A DNA stretch of 64,000 nucleotides from a virus: positions 1 through 64,000 of IMG/VR virus record IMGVR_UViG_3300044949_001928; one strand, written 5' to 3'. Below are positions 9,674 through 58,619 of this stretch, piece by piece. The notes under the pieces are model-generated. The model made no database searches. It saw nothing but the letters and a program-made list of their open reading frames with translations, and was not told where the DNA came from. The position numbers and the translations under genes were made by a program. Each line of letters opens with the position of its first letter. Position 1 is the stretch's first letter.

Positions 9674-11082
9674 CCACCTCCCTCCGCTCTCGCCGCATCA
9701 CCACGCCCGAGGCGTTGCTGGCCGTGCTGGAGCTGGAGCGGAGGGCGTCGCCTCGCACCACCCTCGACATTCCCACCACCCTCACCGCCATCCGCGACGA
9801 CCTGCACGGGGGGCAGGTGGATCTATTCGATGACACCACAACACGAGAGATCGGTGTCGCAGCCGGCTACGGGGCCGGGAAGACCCTCGGCGCCTGCGCC
9901 AAAGCCTTCCAGCTTGCCACGCTCAATCAGGGGTTCGTCGGCTGCGTGCTGGAGCCGACCGGGCCGATGCTGCGGGACATCTGGATTCGGAAGTTCGACG
10001 CCTTCCTTGATCACTACCGCATCCCCTACACCTTCCGGGCCTCGCCGCTACCCGAGCACGTCCTACACCTTCCCTGTGGGGATACCCCAGTGCTCGCCCG
10101 CAGCTTCGAGAACTTTAAGCGGATCGTCGGACCGGACTGGGCGTGGGCGCTGGTGGACGAAGTTGACACCGTGCAGGAGCAGATCGCCGCACGGGGCTAC
10201 GAGAAGATTCTCGGCCGTATCCGGGTCGGCCACGTAAACCAACTGGCGTTCCTCTCCACTCCGGAGGGTTACGCCTGGCACTACAAAACCTTCGGCACCA
10301 ACGAGGCCGCGGCCGACACCGGTAAGCGGCTGATTCGCATGCGCAGCCAGGATAATCCACACTTACCGGAGAGCTACCTCGACAACATGCGCGAGCGCTA
10401 CACCAAGGCGATGCTTGACGCCTATATGAATGGCCTTTATGTCAACCTGAAGACCGGTCAGGTCTACGACCGCTTTAGCCGAGACCACCACGTCAAACCC
10501 CTGCCCGATGGTCTCCAGCCGTCCGACCACATTCTGGTGGGGATCGACTTCAACGTGGGCAACATGTCCGCCGTCCTGCTGGTGGCGCGAGGTCGCGCTG
10601 TTTATGCCTTCGGCGAGATCATGGGCGCCCATGACACCGACGACCTATGCCGCAAGGCCCGCCAGCGCTTCCCTCAGCGACCCCTCTACGCCTACCCTGA
10701 CGCCAGCGGAGCGAATCGCAGCACCAACGCTAGCCTGTCCGATATCGGGATCCTAAAATCCTACGGGTTTCAAAACCGGGCGCCAGAAGCAAACCCGCCG
10801 GTGCGGGACCGCGTGAATGTGGTGCAGGCCCTACTGCTCAATGCCAAGGGTGAGACGCGGCTATGGGTGTCCCCTGAATGCCCCCGCCTGATTGAATCGC
10901 TGGAGCGTCAAGGCTATGACGATCGTGGCGAGCCGGACAAAAAGAGCGGATATGACCACGCCTGCGACGCCCTGGGGTATCCATTGCACCGCCTGTTTGC
11001 CGCTGAACTAGGCTACGGTCTGAGCGGACCCATGCGCACCACCACCGCCTACATCGGCCGCGGCGGCCCCCCATCGCGGTAG
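9670..11082 (+). CDS. terL: Terminase large subunit
   Basis: A 470-residue packaging motor. The ATPase half has Walker A GYGAGKT near residue 65 and Walker B WALVDEVD near 160. The nuclease half has GIDFNVGNMSA near 295, YPDAS near 345 and GYDHACDALGY near 430, the acidic residues of the RNase H-like fold. It translocates DNA into the capsid and cuts it. ATG 9670 overlaps the upstream stop. Length and motifs are normal. Confidence 0.93.
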   Translation: MTTSLRSRRITTPEALLAVLELERRASPRTTLDIPTTLTAIRDDLHGGQVDLFDDTTTREIGVAAGYGAGKTLGACAKAFQLATLNQGFVGCVLEPTGPMLRDIWIRKFDAFLDHYRIPYTFRASPLPEHVLHLPCGDTPVLARSFENFKRIVGPDWAWALVDEVDTVQEQIAARGYEKILGRIRVGHVNQLAFLSTPEGYAWHYKTFGTNEAAADTGKRLIRMRSQDNPHLPESYLDNMRERYTKAMLDAYMNGLYVNLKTGQVYDRFSRDHHVKPLPDGLQPSDHILVGIDFNVGNMSAVLLVARGRAVYAFGEIMGAHDTDDLCRKARQRFPQRPLYAYPDASGANRSTNASLSDIGILKSYGFQNRAPEANPPVRDRVNVVQALLLNAKGETRLWVSPECPRLIESLERQGYDDRGEPDKKSGYDHACDALGYPLHRLFAAELGYGLSGPMRTTTAYIGRGGPPSR

Positions 11083-11108
11083 CTCACCCACCACCTCAAC
11101 CCACCACC

Positions 11109-11348
11109 ATGAGCGCCAACCCAGACGAGCAACACCAGCGGCAGATACAGGCCCGCATCGACGCCTGCCAAAGCGAGCTCGGCAACCTCGAAGCTGAACA
11201 GCAACGGCTAGCCGATCGCTACTCGACCCTGAGGGCTCGCATTGACGCGCTACGCGAGGAGCTGCAGCCATCGCACTGCCAGGCTGAGCCGTTTGATCAG
11301 TGGAGTGCCGATGCAGCCCTTGCGGAGAAGCGTGGGGGGCGGCCATGA
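11109..11348 (+). CDS. Small coiled-coil protein, unknown
   Basis: A 79-residue, heptad-rich protein (ELGNLEAEQQRLADRYSTL). Its ATG follows a CCCACCACC leader typical of start sites here. It is coupled to the next gene by ATGA. No family is recognised. Confidence 0.6.
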   Translation: MSANPDEQHQRQIQARIDACQSELGNLEAEQQRLADRYSTLRARIDALREELQPSHCQAEPFDQWSADAALAEKRGGRP

Positions 11349-11779: not shown

Positions 11780-12613
11780 ATGCTTGCAAAAAACTACCCA
11801 CTACCAAACAGTCAAAGCGAAAAGCTAATCACCCAAAACATTGGCCTGGCCGAGATGATGGCCAACCGCTGGGCTAGGCATACTCGGCAGGATTATGACG
11901 ACTTGATAGGCGTCGCAATGGAGGGGTTGATAATCGGTTGCAGGAAATACGATCCAGATCGTATTAACCCAGCAACGGGTGAGCCATATAAGATCTCAAC
12001 TATCGTGGTTACTACGATAAACTCTGAGATGATGCACTACTTTAGGGATCACGGATTCGTGGTTACCTTTTCCTCGAAGTGGCGAGAGAAGTGGGGCATG
12101 ATTCGACGTATGCGCGATGACGGCGCATCCATTGAGGAAATCGCGGCTAAGGCCGGCCTCAAGGGTGGCGCCACTGAGGTGCAGGAAATGCTCGCCGCCA
12201 TGAGGGGCTGCACCAACATCGACAAGGCGATCGACATCGAGGCCCGGCCCGATGGGTTCTGGATTCAGGAAAGCTCCCCCCTCCTGCAGCTGGTGCGCGA
12301 GGCATGGGCCAGCATTCGCCCGTCGGACTGCAACCTGATCCTCGCCTGGTGGGATGCCCGGCGACCGTCTGCCTCCCCGCCATCAGGGCCGATGCAGCAA
12401 CTTTCATGGCGGATCAGCGCCCTCAAGCGTGGGCAGACGCTGCGCAGGCATCAGGAGCTGACCCAGTTGGCTCTACCGGCTGAGGATCTGATCCCCGAGG
12501 GCTTTGGCCTCCTCCCCTCCGAGGTGCCGCAACTGCCGGAGCTGCAGAAGGCGCCTAGGCCAGCGCGATCGCGTCGCCGCGGCCAGGATGTGGTGCAGCT
12601 GGTGATGATATGA
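11780..12613 (+). CDS. Sigma-factor-like protein
   Basis: A 277-residue protein whose first 110 residues match sigma-70 region 2: NIGLAEMMANRW, DYDDLIGVAMEGLI, KYDP, then YKISTIVVTTINSEMMHYFRDHG. A region-3-like helix pair follows (IRRMRDDGASIEEIAAKAGL). Region 4 is not recognisable, although a basic, helical C-terminus remains. It could redirect the host RNA polymerase to late genes. It stands immediately before the first gene carrying the GGAAACCT start-associated sequence, but no direct link is shown. A related RNA-polymerase-binding or recombination protein cannot be excluded. Confidence 0.55.
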   Translation: MLAKNYPLPNSQSEKLITQNIGLAEMMANRWARHTRQDYDDLIGVAMEGLIIGCRKYDPDRINPATGEPYKISTIVVTTINSEMMHYFRDHGFVVTFSSKWREKWGMIRRMRDDGASIEEIAAKAGLKGGATEVQEMLAAMRGCTNIDKAIDIEARPDGFWIQESSPLLQLVREAWASIRPSDCNLILAWWDARRPSASPPSGPMQQLSWRISALKRGQTLRRHQELTQLALPAEDLIPEGFGLLPSEVPQLPELQKAPRPARSRRRGQDVVQLVMI

Positions 12614-14538: not shown

Positions 14539-16002
14539 GTGGAGATCGACCACCCTACAGACGACGCGAAGCTCCCGAGTTACCACCACCCGACCCTGCG
14601 TGCCGTTGAGCCGCAACTGCGGAAGGCTTACCACGTCTGGACGGGGCTGACGGGGGAGGACGGCAACGGCAAGTCGATCAAAGAGCTGTACTTGCCAAAA
14701 GAGCCACGGGAGCCCCTCGACGCCTACGAGGCACGCCTCAAGCGCTCCGTGTTCTGCCACTTCCTCACGGAAGCTATTGTTGGCCTCGCTGGTGTGCTAA
14801 ATAGTTTCACGCTGGCATCGCCTCCGAAGTCGATGGAAGCGAGACTACAGAATATCGACGGCAAGGGCAACTCTCTTAAAACGTGGTTACTTGATGCCAA
14901 TTCTCTTATGCTTCGCGATGGAGCGCTGTGCATTCAGGTGGAGATGCCACCTAATGAGGCTCGGAACAATAAAGACGTACTCGATAATGGAATTGCTCCT
15001 TACCTTGTAAAGAGGGAGCGGTCTAAAGTCATTAACTGGAGATTTCACGAAGATGGCAAACTTGACTGGGTGATCTTCCTGGAAGCAGCGCAGGAACCTG
15101 ACGGGTCCAAATACGGGGTTAAGATCGTGTACCAGTATCGCGTAGTAGGCAGGGGCTATCAGCAAGTCTTACAGCTGAAACGTGATAAGTCGGGCAAGTT
15201 TACCGTTGTAGAACAGCCAAAAATTGAGATCCTCAACAGCAAAAGAGAACTCGCCGACCGCGTGCCCGTGGTGTGGTACCCGTCCAAAGAAGCGGACTTT
15301 GGCGAAGGTGAATTGCCGTTGCAGCAAGCAATTGACTTATCGGTCGCTTACTTTCAGAAGCTGTCGGATCTATGGGAGAAGGATCATGCTTGCAATGTAA
15401 TTATTCCTGTTATTGCGGGCCAGCTTCCGCTCGCACCAGGGCAGGAGCACAATGAACTGGTGATCGGCAACAATTCGGCGATTTTCCTGGAAAACGGCGG
15501 AACCTTTAACCTTGCAACTGCTGACCCCGGCAGCATGGCGGAATCGAGGGCGCAGATTCAGGATATCGAGCGAATGATTGCCACACAAGCATTAAACTTC
15601 CGTTACGGCGATCCCGGCAACACTAAAACCGCCACACAAGCGGGAATGGAGGGAGCGCAAACGGAAAGCAAGCTCCGCGATTCCGCTGATCGGATGGCCA
15701 GCATGATGGAGGAGGTGATGCGCGTTTGGTGCATGTTCACCGGTGAAACGCTGCAACCTGACGCGGGCCTGTCGATGGCACCCAGCGTCTTCGAGCGGCC
15801 ACTCGACGCCCAGGGCATCGCCCAGCTGCAAAGGCTCACCGGCGACGGCCAGCTCCTCAGCTCGCTCACAGCCATCACGGAACTCTCCCGCCGTGGCATC
15901 TACCCAGCCCTGGACAAACCAGAGGATGAGGTGACGCGGATCAACGAGGAACAGGCTGCCGCCAGTGACGTGGGGGTGAGCGACGAATTGCTGTTGCAGT
16001 GA
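14539..16002 (+). CDS. Portal protein (DUF4055 type)
   Basis: A 487-residue protein starting at GTG, placed by the start-associated sequence. The order of features (HPTLRAVEPQLRKAYHVW, FLPKEP-type, RAxFxHFLTEAIVGLAG, then a long helical core and the RYGDPGNTKTATQAGMEG stretch) fits DUF4055 portal proteins, which form the dodecameric DNA gate at the capsid vertex. The middle (14800-15500) is A/T-richer than the ends. The MuF-type gene follows one gene later, in keeping with head-assembly context. Confidence 0.8.
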   Translation: MEIDHPTDDAKLPSYHHPTLRAVEPQLRKAYHVWTGLTGEDGNGKSIKELYLPKEPREPLDAYEARLKRSVFCHFLTEAIVGLAGVLNSFTLASPPKSMEARLQNIDGKGNSLKTWLLDANSLMLRDGALCIQVEMPPNEARNNKDVLDNGIAPYLVKRERSKVINWRFHEDGKLDWVIFLEAAQEPDGSKYGVKIVYQYRVVGRGYQQVLQLKRDKSGKFTVVEQPKIEILNSKRELADRVPVVWYPSKEADFGEGELPLQQAIDLSVAYFQKLSDLWEKDHACNVIIPVIAGQLPLAPGQEHNELVIGNNSAIFLENGGTFNLATADPGSMAESRAQIQDIERMIATQALNFRYGDPGNTKTATQAGMEGAQTESKLRDSADRMASMMEEVMRVWCMFTGETLQPDAGLSMAPSVFERPLDAQGIAQLQRLTGDGQLLSSLTAITELSRRGIYPALDKPEDEVTRINEEQAAASDVGVSDELLLQ

Positions 16003-16287: not shown

Positions 16288-17379
16288 ATGGCGCCAGAGA
16301 TTCCAGCGCCCCTGCGGATAGTTGGCATAGTTGACAGCTACAGCAGGGAGCTGGACAAACTGGAGGCCCGTAGCACAAGGAACATCCGAGCAATCCTGCG
16401 TCGATCGCTGGCGCAGGTGCTCGGCTCTCTTCGCTACAGCTACCGCCAGTACACCAACGCCCTCGGCGCCCAAGGCCGCGACCCCGCTGGAAACCGGATC
16501 CGGCGGCCCGGCGAGTATGGCATCCTCGACTCAAGCGCCAGGCTCGGGCAGATCTACAGCGACGCGGCGGGGTTCCTGTCAGAGTCGGAGATCAGCCAAT
16601 GGCAGGCGCTCCACCAGCGCGACCTCGCCGAAGCGGCTGCACTGGGCGGCCGGCTCGGGCAGGAACTCGCCGACCTGGCCGACCGCTCCCCTGGTGGGGC
16701 GTTCCAATTCGCAGCCGCTGACCCCGCCGTGCTCCGTGCTGCAGCGCTGCGAACCGGGGCCTATATTCGCGGCGAGGGGGTGAAGTTCCGGGACGACCTG
16801 GTGCGGATCGTCGGCACCGGTGCAGCGCGAGGACTCGGGCCCCGCCAGCTGGAGGCCGACATCCGGAAGCTCCTCCGCGGCGCCCGTGACCCCAGGGGCC
16901 TGAACCGCCGGATTGGACTGGAGCAGCGCGCGGCGCTTGTCGCCACCTCTGAACTTTCGAACGTCTACGCCCAAGCGACACTGGCCAGGGCCCAGCAGCG
17001 GGGCGACAACTACGTGCGGGTGCTCGCCTCGAATGATGAGCGGGTGTGCCCGGTGTGCGCGTCCCGTAATGGCCGGGTGTTCCCCGCCGATCGCGTCACC
17101 CTGCCGTTTCACCCGAAATGCCGTTGCGTTGCCGTGCCGGTGCCGAACGAGGCGGTGCAGGAGCGGGACCTTTCGGTGCGGGGCATCCTGTTGGACAGCG
17201 AGCGATGGCGGGCGGAGCACGAGCGGGGTGTGGAGGCTTACGCGAAGGCGAAGGGGTTGGACATGGAAAAGGCCCGGGCAGATCTTGCCAAGGCCCTGAG
17301 AACGCCTACGCCAGCGGAGAAACGACTGTTTCCGAAGAATCCCCTGCCGCTGGTGGAATCGGTTCCGTTGTTCGATTAG
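16288..17379 (+). CDS. MuF-type head morphogenesis protein
   Basis: A 363-residue minor head protein. The C-terminal domain has ATSELSNVYAQATLARAQ followed by the zinc-type pattern CPVC near residue 251 and HPKCRC near 275, hallmarks of the SPP1 gp7/Mu F family. These proteins bind the portal and enter the head in a few copies. The N-terminal half is helical. A convergent gene follows. Confidence 0.85.
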   Translation: MAPEIPAPLRIVGIVDSYSRELDKLEARSTRNIRAILRRSLAQVLGSLRYSYRQYTNALGAQGRDPAGNRIRRPGEYGILDSSARLGQIYSDAAGFLSESEISQWQALHQRDLAEAAALGGRLGQELADLADRSPGGAFQFAAADPAVLRAAALRTGAYIRGEGVKFRDDLVRIVGTGAARGLGPRQLEADIRKLLRGARDPRGLNRRIGLEQRAALVATSELSNVYAQATLARAQQRGDNYVRVLASNDERVCPVCASRNGRVFPADRVTLPFHPKCRCVAVPVPNEAVQERDLSVRGILLDSERWRAEHERGVEAYAKAKGLDMEKARADLAKALRTPTPAEKRLFPKNPLPLVESVPLFD

Positions 17380-19373: not shown

Positions 19374-19427
19374 TCACCCACCACCGGCGAAACGACCGCT
19401 GCTGTCGCGCTTGCAGGTACGGGCCAT
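19374..19427 (-). pseudogene. 17-residue stub of the MARTYKRD family
   Basis: Reads MARTCKRDSSGRFAGGG and stops. It copies the first 17 residues of the basic proteins at 20618, 21446 and 22043. It has its own start-associated sequence 18 nt upstream. It looks like a truncated paralogue that kept only the start cassette. Confidence 0.6.
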
Positions 19428-19445
19428 GGGAACCGGAGGAGTCTG

Positions 19446-19457
19446 GTTCAGGTTTCC
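19446..19457 (-). promoter_or_regulatory. Start-associated sequence 4 (GGAAACCTGAAC)
   Basis: Minus strand; 18 nt before the ATG of the 17-codon stub at 19427. Confidence 0.7.
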
Positions 19458-19464
19458 AGCCTGA

Positions 19465-19650
19465 TCAGCGCTTCCGCTTCTTCCCAACCTTCGACGCTTC
19501 GCTCAGAGCGATGGCGACCGCCTGCTTCCGGGAGGCCACCTTCGGCCCCTTGCCGGGGCCTGGCTTGCTGGTGTGGAGGGTGCCGCGTTTGAACTCACCC
19601 ATCACGGTGCGGACCTTGGCCTGGGCTTTGGTCGGTTTCTTCTTGGCCAT
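19465..19650 (-). CDS. DUF6496-like small basic protein
   Basis: A 61-residue protein from ATG 19650 (MAKKKPTKAQAKVRTVMGEFK). The pattern MGEFKRGTLH, then KVASRKQAVAIALSEA, is that of a small phage/bacterial family I recall as DUF6496. Very basic tail (GKKRKR). It overlaps the 3' end of the gene at 19595-19777 in another frame. The role is unknown; nucleic-acid binding is likely from its charge. Confidence 0.6.
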   Translation of the reverse strand: MAKKKPTKAQAKVRTVMGEFKRGTLHTSKPGPGKGPKVASRKQAVAIALSEASKVGKKRKR

Positions 19651-19777
19651 GGGAGAGGGTGCGATCGAGGACGATGCGGGCGGAGCCATCGGGGCGGACG
19701 GCGACCACTCGATGGCGGCGGGGCTCGCCGTTACGGGGGCGGAGCCGGCGGCCTACGGCGGTGACGGGGGAGGGCAT
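19595..19777 (-). CDS. Small basic protein, unknown (60 aa)
   Basis: ATG 19777 is placed by a start-associated sequence 20 nt upstream and by a CCCACCACCCC leader. Arg-rich (RRLRPRNGEPRRHRVVAV). It overlaps the DUF6496-like gene by 56 nt in a different frame. No family is recognised. Confidence 0.45.
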   Translation of the reverse strand: MPSPVTAVGRRLRPRNGEPRRHRVVAVRPDGSARIVLDRTLSHGQEETDQSPGQGPHRDG

Positions 19778-19797
19778 GGGGTGGTGGGAGGGGGACG

Positions 19798-19809
19798 GCT
19801 TAGGTTTCC
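19798..19809 (-). promoter_or_regulatory. Start-associated sequence 5 (GGAAACCTAAGC)
   Basis: Minus strand; 20 nt before ATG 19777. Confidence 0.65.
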
Positions 19810-19811
19810 GG

Positions 19812-20618
19812 TCAGCGGCGGCGAGAGCGGGGTTCCCTGAATCCGGGGCGCAACATTTGGTCAAGCTCGATATTCGCGACTGGATCTCCGGTCCTGTAAA
19901 CCTTCTGCGCTCTAATAGCTGTTGCTCGCTTTTGCCACTGCTTTTTATTTTTTCTCATGACCCGCGGTCCCACCTCAAGCTGGTTTCGCATTGCACGCTC
20001 TAGCCTTGCATTCCCGCCGCTGGAGGGTGTCGGCTTCAGCTTAATTCTTGCTGCTTGTTGCTCTGCATTTCTTGAGCGTTCTTTTAATCTATTAACTTCA
20101 TCCCGCAATTTTACAGCCTGCTGCATTTTTGCGTGCATTCTATCCCGTTCTGCAGTTTTTACTCCTTGAGTGTAGAAAGCGCTATCCTTGGACCTGTATT
20201 CTTTCTCTAATCTTGCAATTTTCACTTCTAATGCCTTGGCGCGGCTTGCACTTTTGACAGCCCCTTTTTCCAGTGATTGCTTCCTGGCCTCTGCACTAGA
20301 AATCGGCGTTGCCGGTCTTGCCGCTTTCCCCTTCAACGCCCCCGGCTTCAACCCCCTCGGCTTCCCGACAACACCCGACCGCTGCAGCGACATCCTCGCC
20401 ACCACCGCGCCACGCTTGTTCCCTGCCGCGGTCTTGAGCCTGCCCCCTCGGGCCGTGGCGCCCTGGCCACCTACCGACGTGATTCGCCCCGCGTTGTCCC
20501 GTGTCAGGCGGTTCCTCCCTCTGGTGGGAGGCTTGGCAGCCTTTGCCTCGCCCCCGCTGGAGCTGGTGCCACCAGAGGCGAAGCGCCCCCGGTTATCACG
20601 CTTGTAAGTTCTGGCCAT
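19812..20618 (-). CDS. MARTYKRD-family basic protein A
   Basis: A 268-residue, strongly basic protein. The N-terminal 75 residues carry the family cassette: MARTYKRDNRGRFASGG, then NRLTRDNAGRITSVGGQG, ATARGGRLKTAAGNKRGA. The rest is a helical, coiled-coil-like region (ALEVKIARLEKEYRSKDS, KLRDEVNRLKERSRNAEQ) encoded by clearly A/T-richer DNA (about 19890-20260). Two paralogues (20649 and 22043) share only the N-terminus. Its place near portal and tail genes suggests a minor virion protein, but that is not shown. Confidence 0.65.
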   Translation of the reverse strand: MARTYKRDNRGRFASGGTSSSGGEAKAAKPPTRGRNRLTRDNAGRITSVGGQGATARGGRLKTAAGNKRGAVVARMSLQRSGVVGKPRGLKPGALKGKAARPATPISSAEARKQSLEKGAVKSASRAKALEVKIARLEKEYRSKDSAFYTQGVKTAERDRMHAKMQQAVKLRDEVNRLKERSRNAEQQAARIKLKPTPSSGGNARLERAMRNQLEVGPRVMRKNKKQWQKRATAIRAQKVYRTGDPVANIELDQMLRPGFREPRSRRR

Positions 20619-20637
20619 GGCGTAGGCGACGGTCCTA

Positions 20638-20649
20638 CCCTAGGTTTCC
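20638..20649 (-). promoter_or_regulatory. Start-associated sequence 6 (GGAAACCTAGGG)
   Basis: Minus strand; 19 nt before ATG 20618. Confidence 0.75.
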
Positions 20650-21446
20650 TACTTCTTCCTCCGGCCGCGCTTTTTCTTTGGTGGGGGGTTCGCGTTGCGG
20701 GGGCCTGGAATGATGTTGCTGGCAGCCTTCTTTTTCGGCTTACCAGGGCCCATGAACGCCATCTGGTTTCCATAGATCTTCAGGGCCTTCTTACCCTTCT
20801 CGCTGCCCTTTGCCGCCAGTGCAGCGGCTCTCTCGGCACGCCTGCGGACGACTGGCATCCCGTACTTTGTGCCCATCGACTTGATGGTTATTCCGGCCAG
20901 GTCGCCGTCAATTCCCTTCTTGTTTCGATCGGCCATGGCTCGGGCAACCATTCGCCCCGTCCAGTTCTTCGTCTCATTAGCACGGCCTTTCAGTGATTTG
21001 AGGTCATCACTCATCCCCTTGACGGCGCCTCGTATCTGCCGGTCACCTTGCGCCATCCGTCCGTCGAAAGTAGCGGGCCTGTAGGGGCGGATCGTGTTGA
21101 CGGGCTTCTTGAGCAGGGGTGTGCCGGTGCGCTTGATCGTGTTCTTCGCGCTGGCCTTTGGCCGGCTTCCGCTCCCTCCCTTGCTGACCGGCCGCCGCAC
21201 CTTCCCGCTCGGGCCCGCTGGCCGCTGCACCTTGGCCAGTTGCGTGGCCCGCTGCTTGCCGCTGGCGGTGCGCAGTCTGCCGCCCCTCGCCGTTGCGCCA
21301 TTGCCGGTGCCCGTGATCCGCCCAGCGTTATCCCGCGTCAGGCGGTTCGCGCCCTTGCTCACAGCCCTGGCGGCGGGCTTAGCGCTGCGAGTGCTCCCAC
21401 CAGAGGCGAATCGGCCGTTGGCATCGCGCTTGTATTGCCTGGCCAT
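20649..21446 (-). CDS. MARTYKRD-family basic protein B
   Basis: A 265-residue basic protein with the same N-terminal cassette (MARQYKRDANGRFASGG, NRLTRDNAGRITGTGNGATARGG split over two segments). The C-terminus differs from the paralogues: helical with MVARAMADRNKKGIDGDLAG and RRRAERAAALAAKG, and a Lys/Pro-rich end (PPPKKKRGRRKK). Its stop codon lies next to the start-associated sequence of protein A. Confidence 0.65.
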   Translation of the reverse strand: MARQYKRDANGRFASGGSTRSAKPAARAVSKGANRLTRDNAGRITGTGNGATARGGRLRTASGKQRATQLAKVQRPAGPSGKVRRPVSKGGSGSRPKASAKNTIKRTGTPLLKKPVNTIRPYRPATFDGRMAQGDRQIRGAVKGMSDDLKSLKGRANETKNWTGRMVARAMADRNKKGIDGDLAGITIKSMGTKYGMPVVRRRAERAAALAAKGSEKGKKALKIYGNQMAFMGPGKPKKKAASNIIPGPRNANPPPKKKRGRRKK

Positions 21447-21462
21447 CAGCGCCCCATCGCTA

Positions 21463-21496
21463 CATCAGGTTTCCAGGGAGAAGCGGAAACCTGAGG
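21463..21496. promoter_or_regulatory. Divergent pair of start-associated sequences 7 and 8
   Basis: Minus copy GGAAACCTGATG (21474-21463) is 16 nt before ATG 21446. Plus copy GGAAACCTGAGG (21485-21496) is 16 nt before ATG 21513. Confidence 0.8.
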
Positions 21497-21512
21497 CAAC
21501 GGTCACCGTGTC

Positions 21513-22010
21513 ATGCCGCTAACGATTCCGCCACTCCTCTCGCCGTGGCGTTCCACCGATCGCCTGAAGGTTCTGGAGTACGCGAATTGGCCCGCATCGA
21601 ATCATAACGTTTCGGTGCTAACCCAGGCGATGAATCGCGTTGCGGATACCCTGCCCGATCAAGTGACGCAGGCACAGGGCTGGATCGATCAAGCGGAAAG
21701 ACTGCGGCAGGACTGGGAGGATCAGATCGAGGATGGAACAGCTCACATCGGCAATGCTGCCGAGTATGAGGGGCCCCGGCCTGGCGCCACCATCACCCAG
21801 GATGACAGACAGGTGAAGCTCGATGTGATCGAGTGGGCGCCGCATCCCGACCTGAAGATTCGCACCGTGACCGGCGGCAGGGCTGACGCCACCGCTGGGG
21901 GGCTGACGCAAGGGCTCATCGCGAATCTCCGGCTGCGGGTGCTTCAGTCGATCGGGATCCAGGCCGCGCCAAACCTCAGCGGTGGCGGCACAAGGGTGGT
22001 GAGGAGCTGA
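21513..22010 (+). CDS. Hypothetical structural-region protein (165 aa)
   Basis: A 165-residue protein with a helical first half (LTQAMNRVADTLPDQVTQAQ) and a mixed second half. It lies between head and tail genes where adaptor proteins are usual, but no family is recognised. Confidence 0.55.
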   Translation: MPLTIPPLLSPWRSTDRLKVLEYANWPASNHNVSVLTQAMNRVADTLPDQVTQAQGWIDQAERLRQDWEDQIEDGTAHIGNAAEYEGPRPGATITQDDRQVKLDVIEWAPHPDLKIRTVTGGRADATAGGLTQGLIANLRLRVLQSIGIQAAPNLSGGGTRVVRS

Positions 22011-22014
22011 GCCC

Positions 22015-22026
22015 GGAAACCTGAGG
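22015..22026 (+). promoter_or_regulatory. Start-associated sequence 9 (GGAAACCTGAGG)
   Basis: Exact consensus; 16 nt before ATG 22043. Confidence 0.8.
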
Positions 22027-22042
22027 AGACCGGGGGAGATGG

Positions 22043-22783
22043 ATGGCACGCACCTACAAGCGCGATAGCAGGGGGCGATTCGCTAGCGGTGGCAGCGCAC
22101 GGAGCACCCCGAAGACCCGCGTGGTGACGGGTGCGAGGGCTGTGAGCGGCGGCAAGAACCGCCTCACCCGTGACAATGCTGGCAGGATCACCAGTGTTGG
22201 CGGCCAGGGTGCTACCGCTCGCGGGGGGCGGCTGCGAACCGCCAGCGGAGCGAAGCGCGGGGCTGTAATAGTGAGGATGAACAGCACCGGCGGGAAGCTG
22301 CGGAAGCCGATCGGCGGGGGCGCCCGGATCAGCCGCGCTGAGCCCCTGGCGACCGGCGGCACCCTGGCGGCCCGCTCGTCCCTGGCCCGTGCGAGGCGGA
22401 AGCTGGCCGAGAACGCCACGCCAGCGCAGCGGGGAGCGGTCACCAGGGCGAAGAAGTACGCGGCGCAGTCCTATGACAGGAACACGCAGCCGAAGACGTT
22501 TGGCAGGCCCGCCAGTGTGATGCGGAAGCGGCCACCGGAGGCGCCGCTGCGATGGCAGGTTGGGGGTGGGAAGGGGGAAAACATGCGCGATAAAGATACT
22601 CGTCAGCAAAAAATTAATCAAGAAAGCGTTAAATCACTGCTAGCGGCAGGCCGCGCAGTAGCAGTTTATCCGAAAAAGGGAATCGTTGTAATCGACGGCT
22701 TTCAAAGGCAAAAAGTATCTAAAGCAATGGCGGCAGCTTTAGGCAAAATAGTCAAAGAACATTTACCGTCTCGCCCCCGCTAA
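22043..22783 (+). CDS. MARTYKRD-family basic protein C
   Basis: A 246-residue paralogue on the plus strand. The N-terminal cassette (MARTYKRDSRGRFASGG, NRLTRDNAGRITSVGGQG, ATARGGRLRTASG) is nearly identical to protein A. The last 70 residues (from about MRDKDTRQQKINQESVKSLL) are encoded by A/T-rich DNA with AAA/AAT codons (22580-22780), unlike the GC-rich first part. This sharp change inside one frame suggests a domain joined from another source. Role unknown. Confidence 0.65.
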   Translation: MARTYKRDSRGRFASGGSARSTPKTRVVTGARAVSGGKNRLTRDNAGRITSVGGQGATARGGRLRTASGAKRGAVIVRMNSTGGKLRKPIGGGARISRAEPLATGGTLAARSSLARARRKLAENATPAQRGAVTRAKKYAAQSYDRNTQPKTFGRPASVMRKRPPEAPLRWQVGGGKGENMRDKDTRQQKINQESVKSLLAAGRAVAVYPKKGIVVIDGFQRQKVSKAMAAALGKIVKEHLPSRPR

Positions 22784-22785
22784 CC

Positions 22786-22962
22786 ATGCCCCGCAACAAA
22801 CCCCCCGGCCTCTACGCCAACATCGCCGCCAAGCGCCGCCGGATCAAAGCCGGCTCCAAGGAACGCATGGCCCGCCCCGGCGAGGCAGGCCGACCGACCG
22901 GTGCGGCGTTCAAGGCCGCGGCGAAGACGGCGGGGAAACGCCGCCGCATACCCCGCCGCTAA
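22786..22962 (+). CDS. Conserved small basic phage protein
   Basis: A 58-residue protein starting MPRNKPPGLYANIAAKRRRI, then KAGSKERMARPGEAGRPT and FKAAAKTAGK. This GLYANI...KRRRIKAGS pattern is familiar to me from short proteins in many tailed phages, usually near structural genes. Function unknown. It follows protein C after 2 nt. Confidence 0.7.
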   Translation: MPRNKPPGLYANIAAKRRRIKAGSKERMARPGEAGRPTGAAFKAAAKTAGKRRRIPRR

Positions 22963-22964
22963 CC

Positions 22965-23441
22965 ATGCCCTCCCCCTTCTCCCCCTACGCCAACCTCCGC
23001 ATCCTCATCCCCAGGCCCGCAGCCTCGCTCAACTTCCGCGGTGGCTCGCCCCCATCGAACGGGCACTGGCTCATCCACTGCTACGCCAAGGGCCCCACCA
23101 CAGGCGCCACTGATCTCCCCACCGTTTCCCCCAGGGTTCGCAGCCTCGCCGGCTACATCACAGCATGGGCGCTGCTCCCCACTGGTGGGAACTGGCTCGC
23201 CGCGACAACCGGCTTCACATGGGAAACCACGGGCACCGCGCCATCGGGTCTGCGCATCGGCATGGGCGGACGCGGGTTCCTCGGGGCGCTCCCTGATCTG
23301 CCCACCAAGACCGGCACCTGGCAGGAGGGTGAGGCCACCATCACCAGCCTCTCGGGGCAGTTCGGCCCTGGTGGGATCGGCGCACAGATCCGGGCGCAAG
23401 CGGGCGATGCGATCACAATCGAACTGCAGGTCGCCGCCTGA
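22965..23441 (+). CDS. Head-tail region structural protein, unknown
   Basis: A 158-residue, Gly/Pro/Thr-rich beta-type protein. It begins with the same CCATGCCC context as its upstream neighbour. It sits directly before a gp10-like gene, so a head-tail connector role is plausible by position only. Confidence 0.5.
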   Translation: MPSPFSPYANLRILIPRPAASLNFRGGSPPSNGHWLIHCYAKGPTTGATDLPTVSPRVRSLAGYITAWALLPTGGNWLAATTGFTWETTGTAPSGLRIGMGGRGFLGALPDLPTKTGTWQEGEATITSLSGQFGPGGIGAQIRAQAGDAITIELQVAA

Positions 23442-23905
23442 TGAGCGTCACGGTCAAGCTCGATTCCAGCAACTTCAGGGCCAAGGCCGAGCAGACCGCT
23501 CAGCGTGCCGCGCAGATCACGATGGGCGAACTGTCGGCGGCCTTTCAGCAGTCGTTTACCGCCGTAGCTTGGACCTGGCCCCGCCGGACCGTGCGGAGCG
23601 GGGGAGAGGTTGCCGGCAGCCCGCGGAACCTGATCGATACCGCCAACCTCCGGCAGTCCCACAGCTGGGCCATGACCGGCCCCTATGAGGCCACCTTCAA
23701 GTGGGGCGCCAGATATGCCACCGCTGTCCACGAGGGGGCCCACATCCGCCCCTGGGGGAACGAGGATGCTGATCTGGTGTACCTGCCGCCGCGGCCCTGG
23801 TGTCGCGCCACCCTTGGGCTGGAAAACGTCGATGGGGTGGTGGTCTACAAACTGGATGAACGGCTGCGCAACGTCTGGATGGGGTACCTCAAGGTTGGGG
23901 GGTGA
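23441..23905 (+). CDS. HK97 gp10-like tail completion protein
   Basis: A 154-residue protein. Helical start, then WTWPRRTVR, a middle GPYEATFKWGARYATAVHEGA and PPRPWCRATL, the layout of HK97 gp10/minor tail Z-like proteins that finish the tail-side joint. It precedes the tail chaperone and major tail genes, which fits. Confidence 0.65.
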   Translation: MSVTVKLDSSNFRAKAEQTAQRAAQITMGELSAAFQQSFTAVAWTWPRRTVRSGGEVAGSPRNLIDTANLRQSHSWAMTGPYEATFKWGARYATAVHEGAHIRPWGNEDADLVYLPPRPWCRATLGLENVDGVVVYKLDERLRNVWMGYLKVGG

Positions 23906-23908
23906 CCC

Positions 23909-23920
23909 GGAAACCTGAAG
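23909..23920 (+). promoter_or_regulatory. Start-associated sequence 10 (GGAAACCTGAAG)
   Basis: 20 nt before GTG 23941. It argues against the earlier in-frame GTG at 23902, which lies upstream of it. Confidence 0.75.
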
Positions 23921-23940
23921 CACCACCACCGTCCCCTGCC

Positions 23941-24708
23941 GTGAAGCTCCCCTTCCGCACCTCGCCAACCATTACCACCGAAACCGTTTCGGCGGTGGTC
24001 AATGGCCAGAAGCTGGAGCTCGACTTCCCCGTCATCGGGGCCATCACCGTGGGGGAGTCGAACGTCATCAACGATCACCAGCATCGTGCCGTCTTCTTCC
24101 GGCTTTGCATGGAACTGGCGGATGCCATGCTCACCGAAGGGACTGCTGAGCGGATCCTGCAGGAACGCGGCGACACCGCCGATGGGGCCACCGCTGAATC
24201 CACCGCCGAACTTTCGGCGCTCCGGATTCTCTCCCGCACCGCCGGGATCCCCACCCAGCTCGATGCAGCCGAAACCCGCGCGCGGATCCATCACAGGGGC
24301 CTGGTGACCAGGGCTAGGACTGAGATGGACACGGAGAACGCAGCGCTCCAGTGCCGAACCGCAACGGCGCTCATCTCCCGCCGGTTGCCCGGTTGCGAGG
24401 GCTGGCAAGAGGCCGATACCGAGGGGTTGCCCCTCGCGCTCATCGCGGCGATCAACGAATTCGCGGCGCGGGAACAGAACGGCGGCGCTCCGGAGCGCAC
24501 GGCAGAGGAGATCCTCGCGGAGATGGCCGAAACGCTGGGAAAGCGCGATCCGGCCGGGGACCCCTCGACCCACCAGACTGGGAAGACCTCTTCTGGCGAT
24601 GCCGGGAACTCTGGCCCCATGCCCTCGAGTTCGGACCCGATCGATTCGCCGACCTCCCAGCCCCCTACGTCTACCAGGCCATCGCGAAAGGCGAAGAGCG
24701 ACGGCTGA
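23941..24708 (+). CDS. Tail assembly chaperone, short form (gpG-like)
   Basis: About 255 residues from GTG 23941. The N-terminal two thirds are a structured domain (KLPFRTSPTITTETVSAVV, later NEFAAREQNGG). The last 55 residues past the slip site are low-complexity Ser/Thr/Pro, as expected for a by-product frame. In lambda-like phages the short form and the frameshifted long form chaperone the tape measure. Position before the tail genes fits. Confidence 0.65.
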   Translation: MKLPFRTSPTITTETVSAVVNGQKLELDFPVIGAITVGESNVINDHQHRAVFFRLCMELADAMLTEGTAERILQERGDTADGATAESTAELSALRILSRTAGIPTQLDAAETRARIHHRGLVTRARTEMDTENAALQCRTATALISRRLPGCEGWQEADTEGLPLALIAAINEFAAREQNGGAPERTAEEILAEMAETLGKRDPAGDPSTHQTGKTSSGDAGNSGPMPSSSDPIDSPTSQPPTSTRPSRKAKSDG

Positions 24709-26284: not shown

Positions 26285-26517
26285 ACCTGCTCGCTCATCA
26301 TCGCCCCAGCCGTTTCCGCGGTCGGGGCTTTTTGCTGCCACCGCGGTGGCAGGTTCTGCCGCATCGCCCAAGCAGTGGCGGCACGCTGCACCTGCCAGGA
26401 CTGCAGAAGCATTTTGCACAGCCTTTGAAGCACCGCCGGGTCTGTGGTGTTGTCGATCGCGCGGCTCATCCGCTCCAGCTCGAAGGACTGGGCGGTGGTC
26501 AGGGACATGCCGTCCAT
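26278..26517 (-). CDS. Small helical protein, antisense, unknown
   Basis: A 79-residue, all-helical protein from ATG 26517 (ATG 26508 also possible). Core: TTAQSFELERMSRAIDNTTD, then WQVQRAATAWAMRQNL. The layout resembles short helical proteins that I recall from cyanophages and picocyanobacteria, but I cannot name a family. It has a start-associated sequence 18 nt upstream. Its end overlaps the terminator of the tail gene on the other strand. Confidence 0.55.
   Translation of the reverse strand: MDGMSLTTAQSFELERMSRAIDNTTDPAVLQRLCKMLLQSWQVQRAATAWAMRQNLPPRWQQKAPTAETAGAMMSEQVQ
26303..26333 (+). terminator. Rho-independent terminator after major tail gene
   Basis: GCCCC...GGGGC stem with an inner CCG/CGG pair and a 2-nt internal loop, followed by five T (26329-26333). 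Confidence 0.75.
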
Positions 26518-26535
26518 CGGCGGGTGGCGGGGTTC

Positions 26536-26560
26536 CTGCAGGTTTCCCGGAAACCTGGGG
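26536..26560. promoter_or_regulatory. Divergent pair of start-associated sequences 12 and 13
   Basis: Back-to-back copies one base apart: minus GGAAACCTGCAG (26547-26536) 18 nt before ATG 26517, and plus GGAAACCTGGGG (26549-26560) 16 nt before GTG 26577. Confidence 0.8.
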
Positions 26561-26576
26561 TAGTACCGGTGCCACC

Positions 26577-27002
26577 GTGACGCTGCCGACGACTGCTGAG
26601 GGGATCTACGACCTCCTGGTGGGCGATACGGCCGTGCTCGCTGCACTGGGCACCTACACCAGCGACACGGGCGCCACGGGCCCCGCCATCGCCGTGCTGG
26701 CCGCGAATGAGAAGCTCCCCGAGGGGGTGGCCGTCAGCGGGATTGAACTCAAGATCACCCGCATCCCAGGGTTCGCCCCGCAGGCTCTCATGGATGCCAC
26801 CGTGACGAATCCGACATGGCGGATCTACGCGATCGGCTGGCAGACGGCTGACGGGCTCCAGGCGATGGCGGAGCGGCTCATGGCGCTGTTGCCAGGCGCC
26901 ACCGCGGCAGATGTGGCCGGTGACGCCCCTGGCAGCGGGATCGGGGTGCTCGATCAGGTAGTCATCCGCTGGACGAATCCAACAATCGCGGTAACAGCAT
27001 GA
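26577..27002 (+). CDS. Tail-region protein, tail-terminator candidate
   Basis: A 141-residue protein starting at GTG 26577, fixed by the start-associated sequence. The pattern (TTAEGIYDLLVGDTAVLAALG, WRIYAIGW, AERLMALLPG) resembles short phage tail-terminator proteins, and it is coupled to the tape measure by ATGA. The call rests on pattern and position only. Confidence 0.45.
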   Translation: MTLPTTAEGIYDLLVGDTAVLAALGTYTSDTGATGPAIAVLAANEKLPEGVAVSGIELKITRIPGFAPQALMDATVTNPTWRIYAIGWQTADGLQAMAERLMALLPGATAADVAGDAPGSGIGVLDQVVIRWTNPTIAVTA

Positions 27003-37634: not shown

Positions 37635-37780
37635 CCGACCCCATCCCCACCACCGAACTCGTGCCGCTCGAAGCCCGCGAAACCGCGATGCTGCTGGCCT
37701 TCGCCAACCGTCAGCGGCTACTGCGCGAGGAAGATCGCCGACGCGTCATCCAGGAAGCGGTACGACTGGCGAAGACTTAG
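37631..37780 (+). CDS. Very small helical protein, unknown (49 aa)
   Basis: ATG 37631 overlaps the previous stop. Charged and helical (FANRQRLLREEDRRRVIQEA). Its stop codon TAG ends where the next start-associated sequence begins. No family is recognised. Confidence 0.6.
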   Translation: MTDPIPTTELVPLEARETAMLLAFANRQRLLREEDRRRVIQEAVRLAKT

Positions 37781-37816: not shown

Positions 37817-38584
37817 ATGAAAACCCACCGCAAGCTCTTCCCCGAGCTGTTCCACAACGTCACCCCACCCGATCCCGCCCCAGACGGCGGGGCTGGTGGT
37901 GGTGGCGCTCCCGATCCCGCTGACTCCTCCACTGGTGGGGAAGGGCCGACAGCGGACGACGTCAGGAGGCTGCAGGAGGCGCTCAAGAAGGAGCGGAATC
38001 TGAAGGAACAGGTCGAGAGGCGCCTAAAGGCCATTGACCCCAACCAGGTGGAGGAGGCCCGCCGGGAGGCCGAGGAGGCGCGGCAGGCCAGGGAACTGGC
38101 CGAGCGTGATGCGTCCACCAGAATCGCCGCGATTCAGCAACGAGCACAGAAGGAGCTGCAGGAAGCCAGGGAGGAGGCCGCGAAGGCCGTGGAAGACGCG
38201 CGGCGCCTGAAGGTACGTGTCAAGTGGGAAAGCGAATTTGTCGCGTCCGGAGGGTTCACCGAGCCCAGCGAGATCGATGGCACCACCTCGTTCGATCTCC
38301 TCTGGAAGCATGATGGCGCCACGTTTGAAGAGGACGAGCAGGGCCTTTACCTGAAGGGCGCCGACGGCCTAGCCGTGATCGACAAGGAAACCGGCAAGCG
38401 CGTTACCCCACGCCAGCACTTCGAGCGGCTCCGGAACGACCGCCTCTATTCGGCGCACTTCCAGCCGATCGGTGGCAGCGGTGGCGGCAGCGGGGCCGGT
38501 GTGCGGGGGAGGGTGCAGCACAAGCAGAGCCTTGATGGCATGTCCTCGCGGGATCTGCTGCGGCTCGGACTGGAGGGCAGATAA
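37817..38584 (+). CDS. Capsid scaffold protein
   Basis: A 255-residue protein. Gly/Pro/Ala-rich start, then a long coiled coil at about 50-140 (EALKKERNLKEQVERRLKAI, EEARREAEEARQARELAERD), and a globular C-terminal part ending SSRDLLRLGLEGR. This is the usual make-up of phage scaffold proteins, and the major capsid gene follows. No protease motif is evident. Confidence 0.75.
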   Translation: MKTHRKLFPELFHNVTPPDPAPDGGAGGGGAPDPADSSTGGEGPTADDVRRLQEALKKERNLKEQVERRLKAIDPNQVEEARREAEEARQARELAERDASTRIAAIQQRAQKELQEAREEAAKAVEDARRLKVRVKWESEFVASGGFTEPSEIDGTTSFDLLWKHDGATFEEDEQGLYLKGADGLAVIDKETGKRVTPRQHFERLRNDRLYSAHFQPIGGSGGGSGAGVRGRVQHKQSLDGMSSRDLLRLGLEGR

Positions 38585-53081: not shown

Positions 53082-53413
53082 TGCGGTTGGGGTGGTGTGG
53101 TGGTGGTGGTGGGGGTGGTTCGCGTAGTGTCTATTCTCCAGTATTTGCATTGTTCTTTCCGCATTCCTTTGCGCGCGTAAATACAGTCGTGGAATTCTTC
53201 TGTATCGATAACGCAACTCGTGGGAAACATGCCGGGTTCAAGGTCAACATGGCAGCCGTATCGAAGTTCTCCGATATTCTCGGCCATCTGCTTAACTGCA
53301 TCGGCTGCATCGTGCAAACCTAGCCGATTCGCTACTGATATCAGGCCAGCCATCTGATCCGCCAGTGGTTCCTGAGATTGAGGCCATGCCGGGAGTTTGC
53401 TGAGATCGATCAT
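53078..53413 (-). CDS. Early protein, unknown, Thr/Pro tail (111 aa)
   Basis: Starts MIDLSKLPAWPQSQEPL at 53413. Helical body (LADQMAGLISVANRLGLHDA). Its last residues (TTRTTPTTTTTPPQPQ) are encoded by the ACC-rich leader of the next gene, which it overlaps by ATGA. Confidence 0.55.
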   Translation of the reverse strand: MIDLSKLPAWPQSQEPLADQMAGLISVANRLGLHDAADAVKQMAENIGELRYGCHVDLEPGMFPTSCVIDTEEFHDCIYARKGMRKEQCKYWRIDTTRTTPTTTTTPPQPQ

Positions 53414-56794: not shown

Positions 56795-57258
56795 TGATTC
56801 TCCTGTTGATGAGTAGGATTCATGGCTGCAAGTTCCCGGCGAGCGTAGGCCCAGCCGCATCGAATTCCGCGAGCCCATGCCGTGTCCGCAATATCCTCTG
56901 CTCTCCATTCCTCTGGGCAATCCGGCAACTCCGGCCATTCCGCTGGCGCCGGGGTCGGCGCGGCATACAACGCCATGTCACAGTCGCTATACCGCTCCCT
57001 CCAGCCGCTGAATGACTGGCGCTTCTCCGCGGCGGCCATGAAGTCGCCGGAATTGCACCATGCCACTGGCGCCGGAGGCGGGGCGGCGGCCGGGGGCGGG
57101 GCGGCCATGGCGGCTTGCCGAAGCAGCTGCCGTATCGCCTCGCTGTTGGCCGTGATCACTCGCGAGGAGAGCGCAATGGCGTTGTTGGCGTTGCCAAAGA
57201 ACTGCTCGTTTACCGCCTCCACCAGTTCAATCAACGCATCGCGAATAGGATCACTCAT
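56791..57258 (-). CDS. Early PIRDAL-module protein (155 aa)
   Basis: Starts MSDPIRDALIELVEAVNEQ, a paralogue of the N-terminus at 56387. Ala/Pro-rich linker, then an acidic C-terminal part with Trp (EDIADTAWARGIRCGWAYAR). ATG overlaps the FGE gene end. Function unknown. Confidence 0.55.
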   Translation of the reverse strand: MSDPIRDALIELVEAVNEQFFGNANNAIALSSRVITANSEAIRQLLRQAAMAAPPPAAAPPPAPVAWCNSGDFMAAAEKRQSFSGWRERYSDCDMALYAAPTPAPAEWPELPDCPEEWRAEDIADTAWARGIRCGWAYARRELAAMNPTHQQENQ

Positions 57259-58426: not shown

Positions 58427-58619
58427 CGACAAGCCCCGCCGCACGATCTACCAGGGCAGCGTCAGCGAAACGATTTTCTCTGCGCAATGCAATGACCAGT
58501 GCGGACAGTCGCTCAGAGAACTCTTCATTCGACAAGGCGGCGCACGCGTCTTTGGCGCTGCTTATTTTCTCATTGAGATGAACCAGCTCGGGCAGTTCGG
58601 CAGGGAAAACGATCGGCAT
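58416..58619 (-). CDS. Small helical early protein ahead of the FGE gene (67 aa)
   Basis: ATG 58619, downstream of an early promoter (58634-58655). All helical (PELVHLNEKISSAKDACAAL, LSALVIALRRENRFADAALV). It overlaps the FGE-like gene by 11 nt and is cotranscribed with it. A link to the variable protein is possible but unproven. Confidence 0.6.
   Translation of the reverse strand: MPIVFPAELPELVHLNEKISSAKDACAALSNEEFSERLSALVIALRRENRFADAALVDRAAGLVDVF

Follow-up and report, generated by a model that had tools for sequence, protein, structure and literature searches.

Comparison of the window (the whole stretch of 64,000 nucleotides analysed here) with related viral contigs shows that its tagged proteins keep a short N-terminal tag in the slot while the C-terminal part, or payload, is exchanged, and we regard this exchange as virtually certain. 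The window phage is probably a tailed phage and, judged from its relatives, a cyanophage. On balance, we favor a reading in which the tag would target the capsid and the polymorphic payloads would be cargo, probably ejected. The features referred to throughout are the following.

14539–16002, plus strand: portal protein, slot border, with the start-associated element upstream
16288–17379, plus strand: MuF minor head protein, slot border
19374–19427, minus strand: stub, tag only (17 codons and a TGA at 19374)
19448–19457, minus strand: stub element, GGAAACCTGA
19812–20618, minus strand: P1, tagged protein of 268 aa
20640–20649, minus strand: P1 element, GGAAACCTAG
20649–21446, minus strand: P2, tagged protein of 265 aa
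21465–21474, minus strand: P2 element
21485–21494, plus strand: g21513 element, preceding an untagged conserved gene
21513–22010, plus strand: g21513, conserved untagged neighbor that borders most tag slots
22015–22024, plus strand: P3 element, the first part of which persists in the relative L061, where P3 itself is missing
22043–22783, plus strand: P3, tagged protein of 246 aa
22786–22962, plus strand: small basic gene, 58 aa, phrog_16028
23441–23905, plus strand: HK97-gp10-like gene (gp10like; weak match), head/tail completion, downstream border of the cluster

The original prediction of four cassette copies, three full and one a 17-residue stub, holds at these positions, and the stub is the remnant of a tagged gene. 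Their common N-terminus was recovered with the P3 cassette as query, which returned P1, P2, and the stub with E-values of 2e-27, 6e-23, and 5e-4, respectively; the identity to the P3 cassette is 67% for P1 and 64% for P2, and the similarity of the copies is far above chance. In the window, the cassette contains an R-D-x-x-G-R-(F/I) motif twice, together with a GATARGGRL block. Across the family the consensus is [TS]Y-x-RD-x-x-GRF-[AS]-[SG]-G with the invariant core Y-x-R-D-x-x-G-R-F; in many members a second motif, RDNxGRI, and the GATARGGRL block come after it. The predicted change in base composition between cassette and C-terminal part was found in two copies, P1, where the G+C content is 69.1% over 20341–20618 and 50.5% over 19812–20340, and P3, where it falls near 22580 from 62–82% to 35–53% in 60-nt windows, with the final window at 65%. 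In P2 the decrease along the gene is only mild.

Approximately 200 tagged ORFs were found at 107 loci in viral contigs. The slots recur among the genes for TerL, portal, MuF, g21513, g22965, gp10like, and tail proteins, the majority lying between the portal, MuF, and head-completion genes and some among tail genes. A prophage or host origin of the system was rejected, as the cassette has no relative in the 84,980 prokaryote species genomes scanned or in the plasmids searched. The AbrB-like neighbor likewise has no relative in the 84,980 genomes. In the cultured cyanophages S-CRES2/3, S-CBS2, PSS2, and KBS-S-2A, which have related portal or terminase genes, the tag is absent from the stretches examined.

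The exchange is seen most directly in pairs of closely related phages with orthologous starts at the same slot, where a swap was scored when the first 75 residues were at least 70% identical and the last 80 less than 35% identical. The N-terminus is kept with an unrelated C-terminus in 343 of 596 such pairs, compared with none of ~1,440 pairs for the control neighbors portal, MuF, g21513 (0 of 272), g22965, gp10like, g23902, and tail25406. Breakpoints concentrate after residues 60–100 of the tagged proteins, so that the pair comparisons support the proposed domain swapping together with its breakpoint at about 75 residues. Downstream, homology returns a median of 3–4 nt from the stop codon; of 325 swapped pairs, 265 show it restored at the stop codon itself. 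The outcome named beforehand as speaking against swapping, the same C-terminus always joined to the same cassette, was looked for and did not occur; the same payload can recur in more than one slot and behind more than one tag variant. The 144 complete proteins fall into 62 C-terminal clusters, and sampling is not saturated, with a Chao1 estimate of ~150 for the payload pool from the present sample alone. The contigs are metagenomic assemblies in which repeated tags could produce mis-joins, but because both members of a pair have the same downstream flank, a double mis-join would be needed. The further suggestion that element and cassette move as one unit was not borne out: both stay in the slot while the payload changes and homology resumes at the stop codon, and the element also serves the portal and other untagged genes.

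Comparison of the window with L061 illustrates the process at single loci. The flanks are 87–95% identical (mostly 90–95%), and the rearranged places are the four tag loci and two other indels. At the site of the stub, L061 carries a full-length tagged gene of 142 aa, the upstream part of which cannot be aligned to the window. For P1, the cassette and linker (20341–20618) are orthologous in L061, whereas the payload (19812–20340) is unrelated to L061 there and is homologous to parts of proteins of L012, L081, and L023. For P2, the end of the tag (to 21391) and the payload at 20649–21119 are 89–90% identical to L061 at the DNA level, whereas the middle (21120–21390) is a different module. P3 is missing in L061 together with the phrog_16028 gene, except for its last codons; its cassette and middle module (to ~22549) are related to L006, and its last ~70 residues, coded by A+T-rich DNA, have no relatives in the compared set.

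The pattern found here, a constant N-terminus with recombining C-termini, typifies polymorphic toxins (PMC3482391, PMC5576092), and on that reading the tag would be a delivery domain and the C-terminus an antibacterial toxin with an adjoining immunity gene. We consider this very improbable, as the resumption of homology at the stop codon indicates that the payload does not bring an immunity gene with it, no recognizable toxin domain was found in the payloads, and the absence of the tagged gene from prokaryote species genomes argues against a prophage-borne weapon. Toxin plus immunity was rejected as the architecture, the payload alone being exchanged. The MuF polymorphic toxins of temperate phages have a head-associated constant domain, variable C-termini, and a gene beside the portal (PMC5576092). 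In the window, by contrast, the constant part is a short tag and the tagged proteins are without an N-terminal MuF domain, MuF being a separate constant gene, and the payload changes without an immunity gene.

The payloads, which reach ~800 aa, are uniformly basic despite their unrelated sequences. The net charge is positive in all 62 C-terminal representatives, with a mean of +0.19 per residue, and only 2 cysteines, both in doubtful tails, occur in 17,727 payload residues compared with 64–142 expected. The tape measure protein and 37817 are the only other cases of absent cysteine seen here. The basic, low-complexity, disordered composition may itself partly account for the cysteine depletion. 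Neighborhood, charge, and lack of cysteine all point to a location inside the particle, which we regard as probable. That the proteins are instead late intracellular DNA- or RNA-binding regulators, lying in the structural module by chance, would agree with their basic nature; this is improbable, since it leaves unexplained both their confinement to structural-gene slots and the cysteine absence held in common with the tape measure protein and 37817, and Gordonia phages show a similar arrangement upstream of the capsid genes. A position on the particle exterior, with decoration or adhesion proteins diversified for host binding, would fit the common diversification of host-binding proteins and the tail genes that surround some slots. 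However, the portal, MuF, and head-completion genes enclose most slots, the proteins are very basic, rich in lysine and arginine, cysteine-free, and largely disordered or helical, and similarity of the payloads to fibers or lectins is limited to one weak match (E 0.027), making an exterior role quite improbable.

More weight falls to the possibility that the proteins are structural particle components that condense DNA or fill the head, with no effector role and with variation tolerated because only charge matters. The uniform strong positive charge over unrelated payloads is consistent with this, as are the disorder predicted for the first 100 residues of P2 in its AlphaFold model and the occurrence of neutral loss or truncation (the stub at 19427 and the absence of P3 from L061). 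We nevertheless judge it unlikely, because payload exchange reaching the stop codon outpaces drift in phages that are otherwise ~98% identical and because some payload clusters have conserved specific domains. Few payloads carry a recognizable putative activity domain. In 13 contigs a metallopeptidase-like HExxH family is found in which H, E, H, and one later E are invariant; its AlphaFold model is of low confidence with a helix-sheet-helix order, and Foldseek returned mostly HExxH peptidases at E-values of at least 0.2. As the mean pLDDT is 54–55 for the P2 and HExxH payload models, only the N-terminal disorder of P2 and the helix-sheet-helix order of the HExxH domain were used. The J-domain (PF00226) scores 29.6 bits in a payload of L038, above the Pfam gathering cut-off of 27.8, and 26.7 bits, slightly below it, in one of L041, and the HPD motif is present in both. 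For the payloads of P1, P2, and P3, no convincing known domain was found in Pfam, PHROGs, NCBIfam, PADLOC, or PDB.

The start-associated sequence that had been noted before all four tagged copies lies ~30 nt upstream of each start, and GGAAACCTGA has 20 matches at ≤1 mismatch compared with 3.5 expected. The element is present 26–36 nt upstream of 110 of 144 distinct tag starts (0.74 expected), and also precedes the portal (47 of 60), g21513 (32 of 47), and g23902, indicating that it is a general mark of genes or operons. We interpret it as a putative promoter-like sequence. Because it is common to the tagged genes, the portal, and others, late expression with the structural module is very likely, although MuF and gp10like, both structural, are without the element, and common regulation is thus incomplete. 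A Shine-Dalgarno function was rejected, as 26–36 nt from the start is too distant and the variant of a second clade lacks GAGG. The element resembles the −35 box of an extracytoplasmic-type sigma factor, but with this spacing transcription would begin no earlier than the start codon. Cluster K mycobacteriophages reportedly have start-associated sequences, short conserved elements that precede many genes with constant spacing to the start; the element of the window type differs from these in sequence (GGAAACCTGA or GGGAAAACT) and in its greater distance from the start.

The closest functional parallel is with T4, whose internal proteins have an N-terminal capsid targeting sequence (PMC9026906) and are packaged, injected, and counter host defenses (PMC9026906, PMC9391042, PMC4437046), a counter-defense function being described for IPIII (PMC9391042). 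As in the window, where one phage has several otherwise unrelated proteins with a common N-terminal sequence, the T4 set (IPI, IPII, IPIII, and Alt) consists of several basic, cysteine-free proteins with a common short N-terminus and divergent bodies; IPI, IPII, and IPIII contain zero cysteine, and the variable ip1 locus of T-even phages is a close parallel to the tag system. In contrast, the window tag (YxRDxxGRF, then a second module) is unlike that of T4 and is without known cleavage, the window phage is siphovirus-like with slots spread across the head/tail region, and packaging, known for the T4 proteins, is predicted for the tagged proteins. Searches of Pfam, PHROGs, NCBIfam, and PDB gave no informative match to known internal proteins. 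No maturation cleavage site was noticed, no prohead protease was identified among the scanned window proteins, and removal of the tag at maturation may not occur. By analogy, the tag system may work like the T4 internal proteins, of which it is not a demonstrated family member. In bacteriophage P1, N-terminal residues (N30) direct the large anti-restriction protein DarB into the head (PMC9024508). That paper gives the Dar proteins no consensus N-terminus, and the sections drawn on here describe no swapping, unlike the common N-terminus and payload swapping of the window. As far as known, the window tag matches neither the T4 nor the P1 targeting sequence. Polyvalent proteins, whose multiple domains occur in shuffled combinations, are predicted to accompany the phage DNA through packaging and injection, and zincin-like metallopeptidases are frequent among them (Iyer et al. 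2017; PMC5512222). They are defined by known enzymatic domains, whereas the window has a common N-terminal tag on short basic proteins with mostly unknown payloads, and no payload significantly matched a named polyvalent domain in Pfam, NCBIfam, or PHROGs.

A similar design is present in cultured Gordonia phages (Terapinvirus, Lambovirus), which have 3–5 basic cysteine-free proteins with common KRDxxGRF-type N-termini encoded between portal and capsid. Like the window, these phages have such genes in a row, with a (K)RDxxG(R/K)F core followed by divergence, whereas the rest of the N-terminus differs (WGNALGGY...) and the proteins are annotated merely as hypothetical. The putative homology of the two tags rests on a short motif. 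Gp8 of Patos is a fusion of Yikes gp7 (nt 1–98) to Yikes gp8 inside a 35-nt tag match, indicating that tag-coding DNA can act as a recombination point. This crossover comes from isolate genomes, not metagenomic assemblies. No virion proteomics of Gordonia phages was found in the open-access literature.

In the mechanism that we propose, the tagged genes would be made late in infection, the tag would carry them into the prohead, and the payloads, basic and free of cysteine, would be packaged alongside the DNA and probably leave together with it by ejection through the tail. The fast payload turnover would then reflect selection by host defenses or host takeover, as in the T4 internal proteins; we give the tagged proteins an even chance of being ejected effectors. 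More tentatively, a YxRDxxGRF-type tag in tailed phages as unrelated as uncultured cyanophages and Gordonia phages could be a general, previously undescribed capsid-cargo code that marks any late protein for head packaging and ejection. Recombination would then also take place at the tag DNA, allowing effector payloads from a large open pool to circulate between slots and phages like integron gene cassettes without a dedicated recombinase. Because cultured Gordonia phages have the same design, the hypothesis is testable now. To our knowledge, almost no injected effector or counter-defense proteins of cyanophages have been described. Should the tag prove to be a packaging signal, it could be used to load foreign proteins into phage particles, and the 62 payload families, and probably many more, would be candidate injected effectors or counter-defense proteins of cyanophages, the very fast payload exchange among nearly identical phages directly documenting what these phages have to inject.

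As originally predicted, the window encodes three basic proteins that share about 75 N-terminal residues and then diverge, plus a truncated fourth copy, and the window sequence bore this out in every detail. The shared N-terminal part is referred to as the tag or cassette, and the exchanged C-terminal rest as the payload.

20618-19812, minus strand: tagged protein P1
21446-20649, minus strand: tagged protein P2
22043-22783, plus strand: tagged protein P3
19427-19374, minus strand: tag stub of 17 residues

The cassette is composite, with MARxYKRDxxGRFASGG and NRLTRDNAGRIT both bearing an R-D-x-x-G-R-(F/I) motif and the second motif followed by GATARGGRLRTA; shorter tag relatives have a single motif fused directly to GATARGG. 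The core Y-x-R-D-x-x-G-R-F is nearly invariant in 159 distinct proteins (R, D, G and F in 158/158 aligned, Y in 156), a figure that is partly circular as the proteins were chosen by profile and motif. A first IMG/VR scan gave 56 loci, and a second with an alignment as query gave 273 matching stretches, 80 of which were kept. No tag relatives were found in prokaryotes in the GTDB scan (84,980 species) or in plasmids in the plasmid scan. Contigs carry one to five copies in recurring slots (TerL/portal, portal/MuF, MuF/g21513, g21513/g22965, gp10like/g23902 and tail25406/g26346, the coded names being untagged window genes), as surveyed in 6–8 kb flanks, with positions beyond that region sampled less well. 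The four copies of the complete window record fall within 19.3–22.8 kb.

The source is an uncultured viral contig of 65,114 bases, of which the window covers 64,000. The phage encodes a terminase, sigma factor, portal, MuF, tail protein, tape measure and major head protein, and the tagged proteins are encoded between MuF and a gene with weak similarity to gp10. The recombination-protein matches are Mu Gam-like and Sak4-like, with Pfam preferring Sipho_Gp157 for the former. The host is likely a cyanobacterium, since TerL is 51–56% identical to that of cyanophages KBS-S-2A, S-H1 and MED4-184, the top portal hits come from Synechococcus phages S-CRES3 and S-CBS2 and cyanophage PSS2 (32–35%), and one encoded protein matches the AbrB-like family PF14250. 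The gene at 57251-58444 (minus strand) encodes a protein with a strong FGE-sulfatase-like domain; this formylglycine-generating-enzyme fold is also used as the variable protein of diversity-generating retroelements.

Comparison of the window with its close relative L061 showed 87–95% DNA identity over most of 13.3–27.6 kb, mainly 90–95%, with all four tag loci differing. The P1 cassette is 88% identical and its payload unrelated, the break adjoining a KPKGLKPG linker. For P2, the start is shared and the payload is 89% identical from 21119 down, but the middle module differs, the break coming after FASGGS. P3 and its small neighbor gene are absent from L061, which retains the first part of the start-associated element (a short promoter-like sequence ~30 nt before gene starts) and the small gene's final codons, indicating that the deletion happened in L061. 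The positional counterpart of the stub is a full-length tagged gene. Outside the tag genes there are two more indels, extra stretches at 10868-11318 and 8329-9143 of L061.

For locus pairs with 2 kb or more in common at ≥78% identity, tag genes with alignment-orthologous starts were swapped in 343 of 596 pairs (N-terminal 75 residues ≥70%, C-terminal 80 residues <35%) and kept both ends in 207; the pairs are non-independent, with ~125 distinct payload-cluster combinations among them. The same test gave 0 swaps in ~1,440 pairs for seven conserved neighbor genes serving as controls (portal, MuF, g21513, g22965, gp10like, g23902 and tail25406). As an exception, the sigma gene (window 11780-12613 and its counterparts in relatives) was left out of the controls, because in this analysis its C-terminus diverged between otherwise close phages (20/266 pairs <35%). 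Breakpoints are concentrated at residues 60–100. The restart of homology lies a median of 3–4 nt ahead of the stop codon and falls between −90 and +60 nt of it in 265/325 pairs, so the exchange replaces the payload alone. Mis-joins during assembly are possible at repeated tags and can mimic swapping. However, the members of a pair have identical upstream and downstream slots, which would require two mis-joins, the identical payload-slot combination was found again in different samples, and isolate genomes of Gordonia phages settle the question for an analogous system. The 144 complete proteins sort into 62 payload clusters, with a steep collector's curve and a Chao1 estimate of ~152. The same clusters recur in different slots and with different tag variants, and GC3 of the payload is at least 0.15 below that of the tag in 29 of 62 representatives, with the reverse in one.

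The Gordonia system was reached through a weak match in phage LilyPad and consists of three to five consecutive genes in the portal-capsid interval of Terapinvirus and Lambovirus. The N-termini are shared (for example WGNALGGYRxQKRDxxGRF or GRIPRDKNGKF) and the C-termini divergent, with charges of +0.09 to +0.42 per residue and 0 cysteines in 5,123 residues; the region's other genes have 31 in 6,166. Patos gp8 aligns with Yikes gp7 at nt 1–98 (98%) and with Yikes gp8 at nt 58–651 (95%). Because the common stretch of Yikes gp7 and gp8 there is only a 35-nt, tag-coding match (91%), the alignments place the crossover point in tag DNA. The likeness to the window tag is one motif, too short to decide common origin.

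Most payloads have no recognized identity in domain and family searches. The commonest cluster (13 contigs) contains HExxH, whose H, E and H do not vary; further along, P-x-E-F-x-A-E contributes another invariant E. Its predicted order of helix, three strands, helix and helix would fit a zincin at low confidence, and the best Foldseek matches of the model are HExxH peptidases (E ≥ 0.2). A J-domain bearing the HPD motif is present in two related payloads and exceeds the Pfam cut-off in one of them. Several unrelated payloads end in QLSLL, QVNLL, QLNLF or QLALV (17 of 159 proteins), a motif that resembles the bacterial sliding-clamp binding peptide and that we treat as a lead only.

Last 20–100 residues of tagged proteins (L017, L066, L065, L103, L062, L071, L078, L036, L006): QLSLL-type ending

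Four lines of evidence, none decisive, point to the tagged proteins being inside the particle: position, element, charge and cysteine. The slots lie among head and tail genes. Of the 144 distinct tag starts, 110 have the element 26–36 nt upstream, against an expected 0.74. The element also precedes portal (47/60), g21513 (32/47) and g23902 (10/12), but is absent upstream of MuF and gp10like, which appear to be operon-internal genes. Payload ends are net positive in 62/62 unrelated representatives, and other window proteins are near neutral, save two small basic tag-adjacent genes and the gene at 53410. The 54,748 residues of the tagged set include 5 cysteines, compared with 0.4–1.5% in neighbors. 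Each of the five sits in an out-of-family or truncated tail, one of which is a frameshift as seen against locus L093. Only five of the 30 proteins called in the window with a length of 200 aa or more lack cysteine, namely P1, P2 and P3, the tape measure and the product of 37817; T4 IPI, IPII and IPIII are cysteine-free too. This scarcity is suggestive of the particle interior but not proof, because a basic, disordered composition may itself reduce cysteine.

The 255-aa product of 37817-38584 (plus strand), encoded just upstream of the major head protein with an element at 37780, is possibly a scaffold. The small, very basic genes 19465-19689 (minus strand, DUF6496) and 22786-22962 (plus strand, phrog_16028) are frequent tag-gene neighbors in relatives, and their products may be cargo as well. 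Divergent element pairs lie between opposed genes at 21465-21474 (minus)/21485-21494 (plus), 10 nt apart, and practically back to back at 26538-26547 (minus)/26549-26558 (plus). Since the elements at 26549 and 23909 (both plus) fall within called ORFs 26346-27002 and 23902-24708, they suggest true starts at ~26579 and ~23941.

T4 internal proteins have N-terminal targeting, ~360 copies, ejection and host-defense inhibition (PMC9026906, PMC9391042, PMC4437046), and by analogy offer a precedent for each step proposed below. The tag-payload proteins would work likewise, as they would with respect to P1 DarB, although packaging, the defining feature of the T4 proteins, is here a prediction. Shuffling is common to polyvalent proteins and polymorphic toxins, but tag-payload genes fall outside the latter by the immunity-gene criterion, and tagged proteins outside MuF toxins by the MuF-domain criterion. 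That the tag is a general cargo code is a tentative idea, which we consider somewhat improbable. In the proposed mechanism, the tag and late expression would carry the protein into the assembling head, where DNA packaging would trap it; the payload would then pass into the host along with the DNA and act there. Payload exchange would take place in co-infection, with the tag, the linker and the element serving as sites of homologous recombination.
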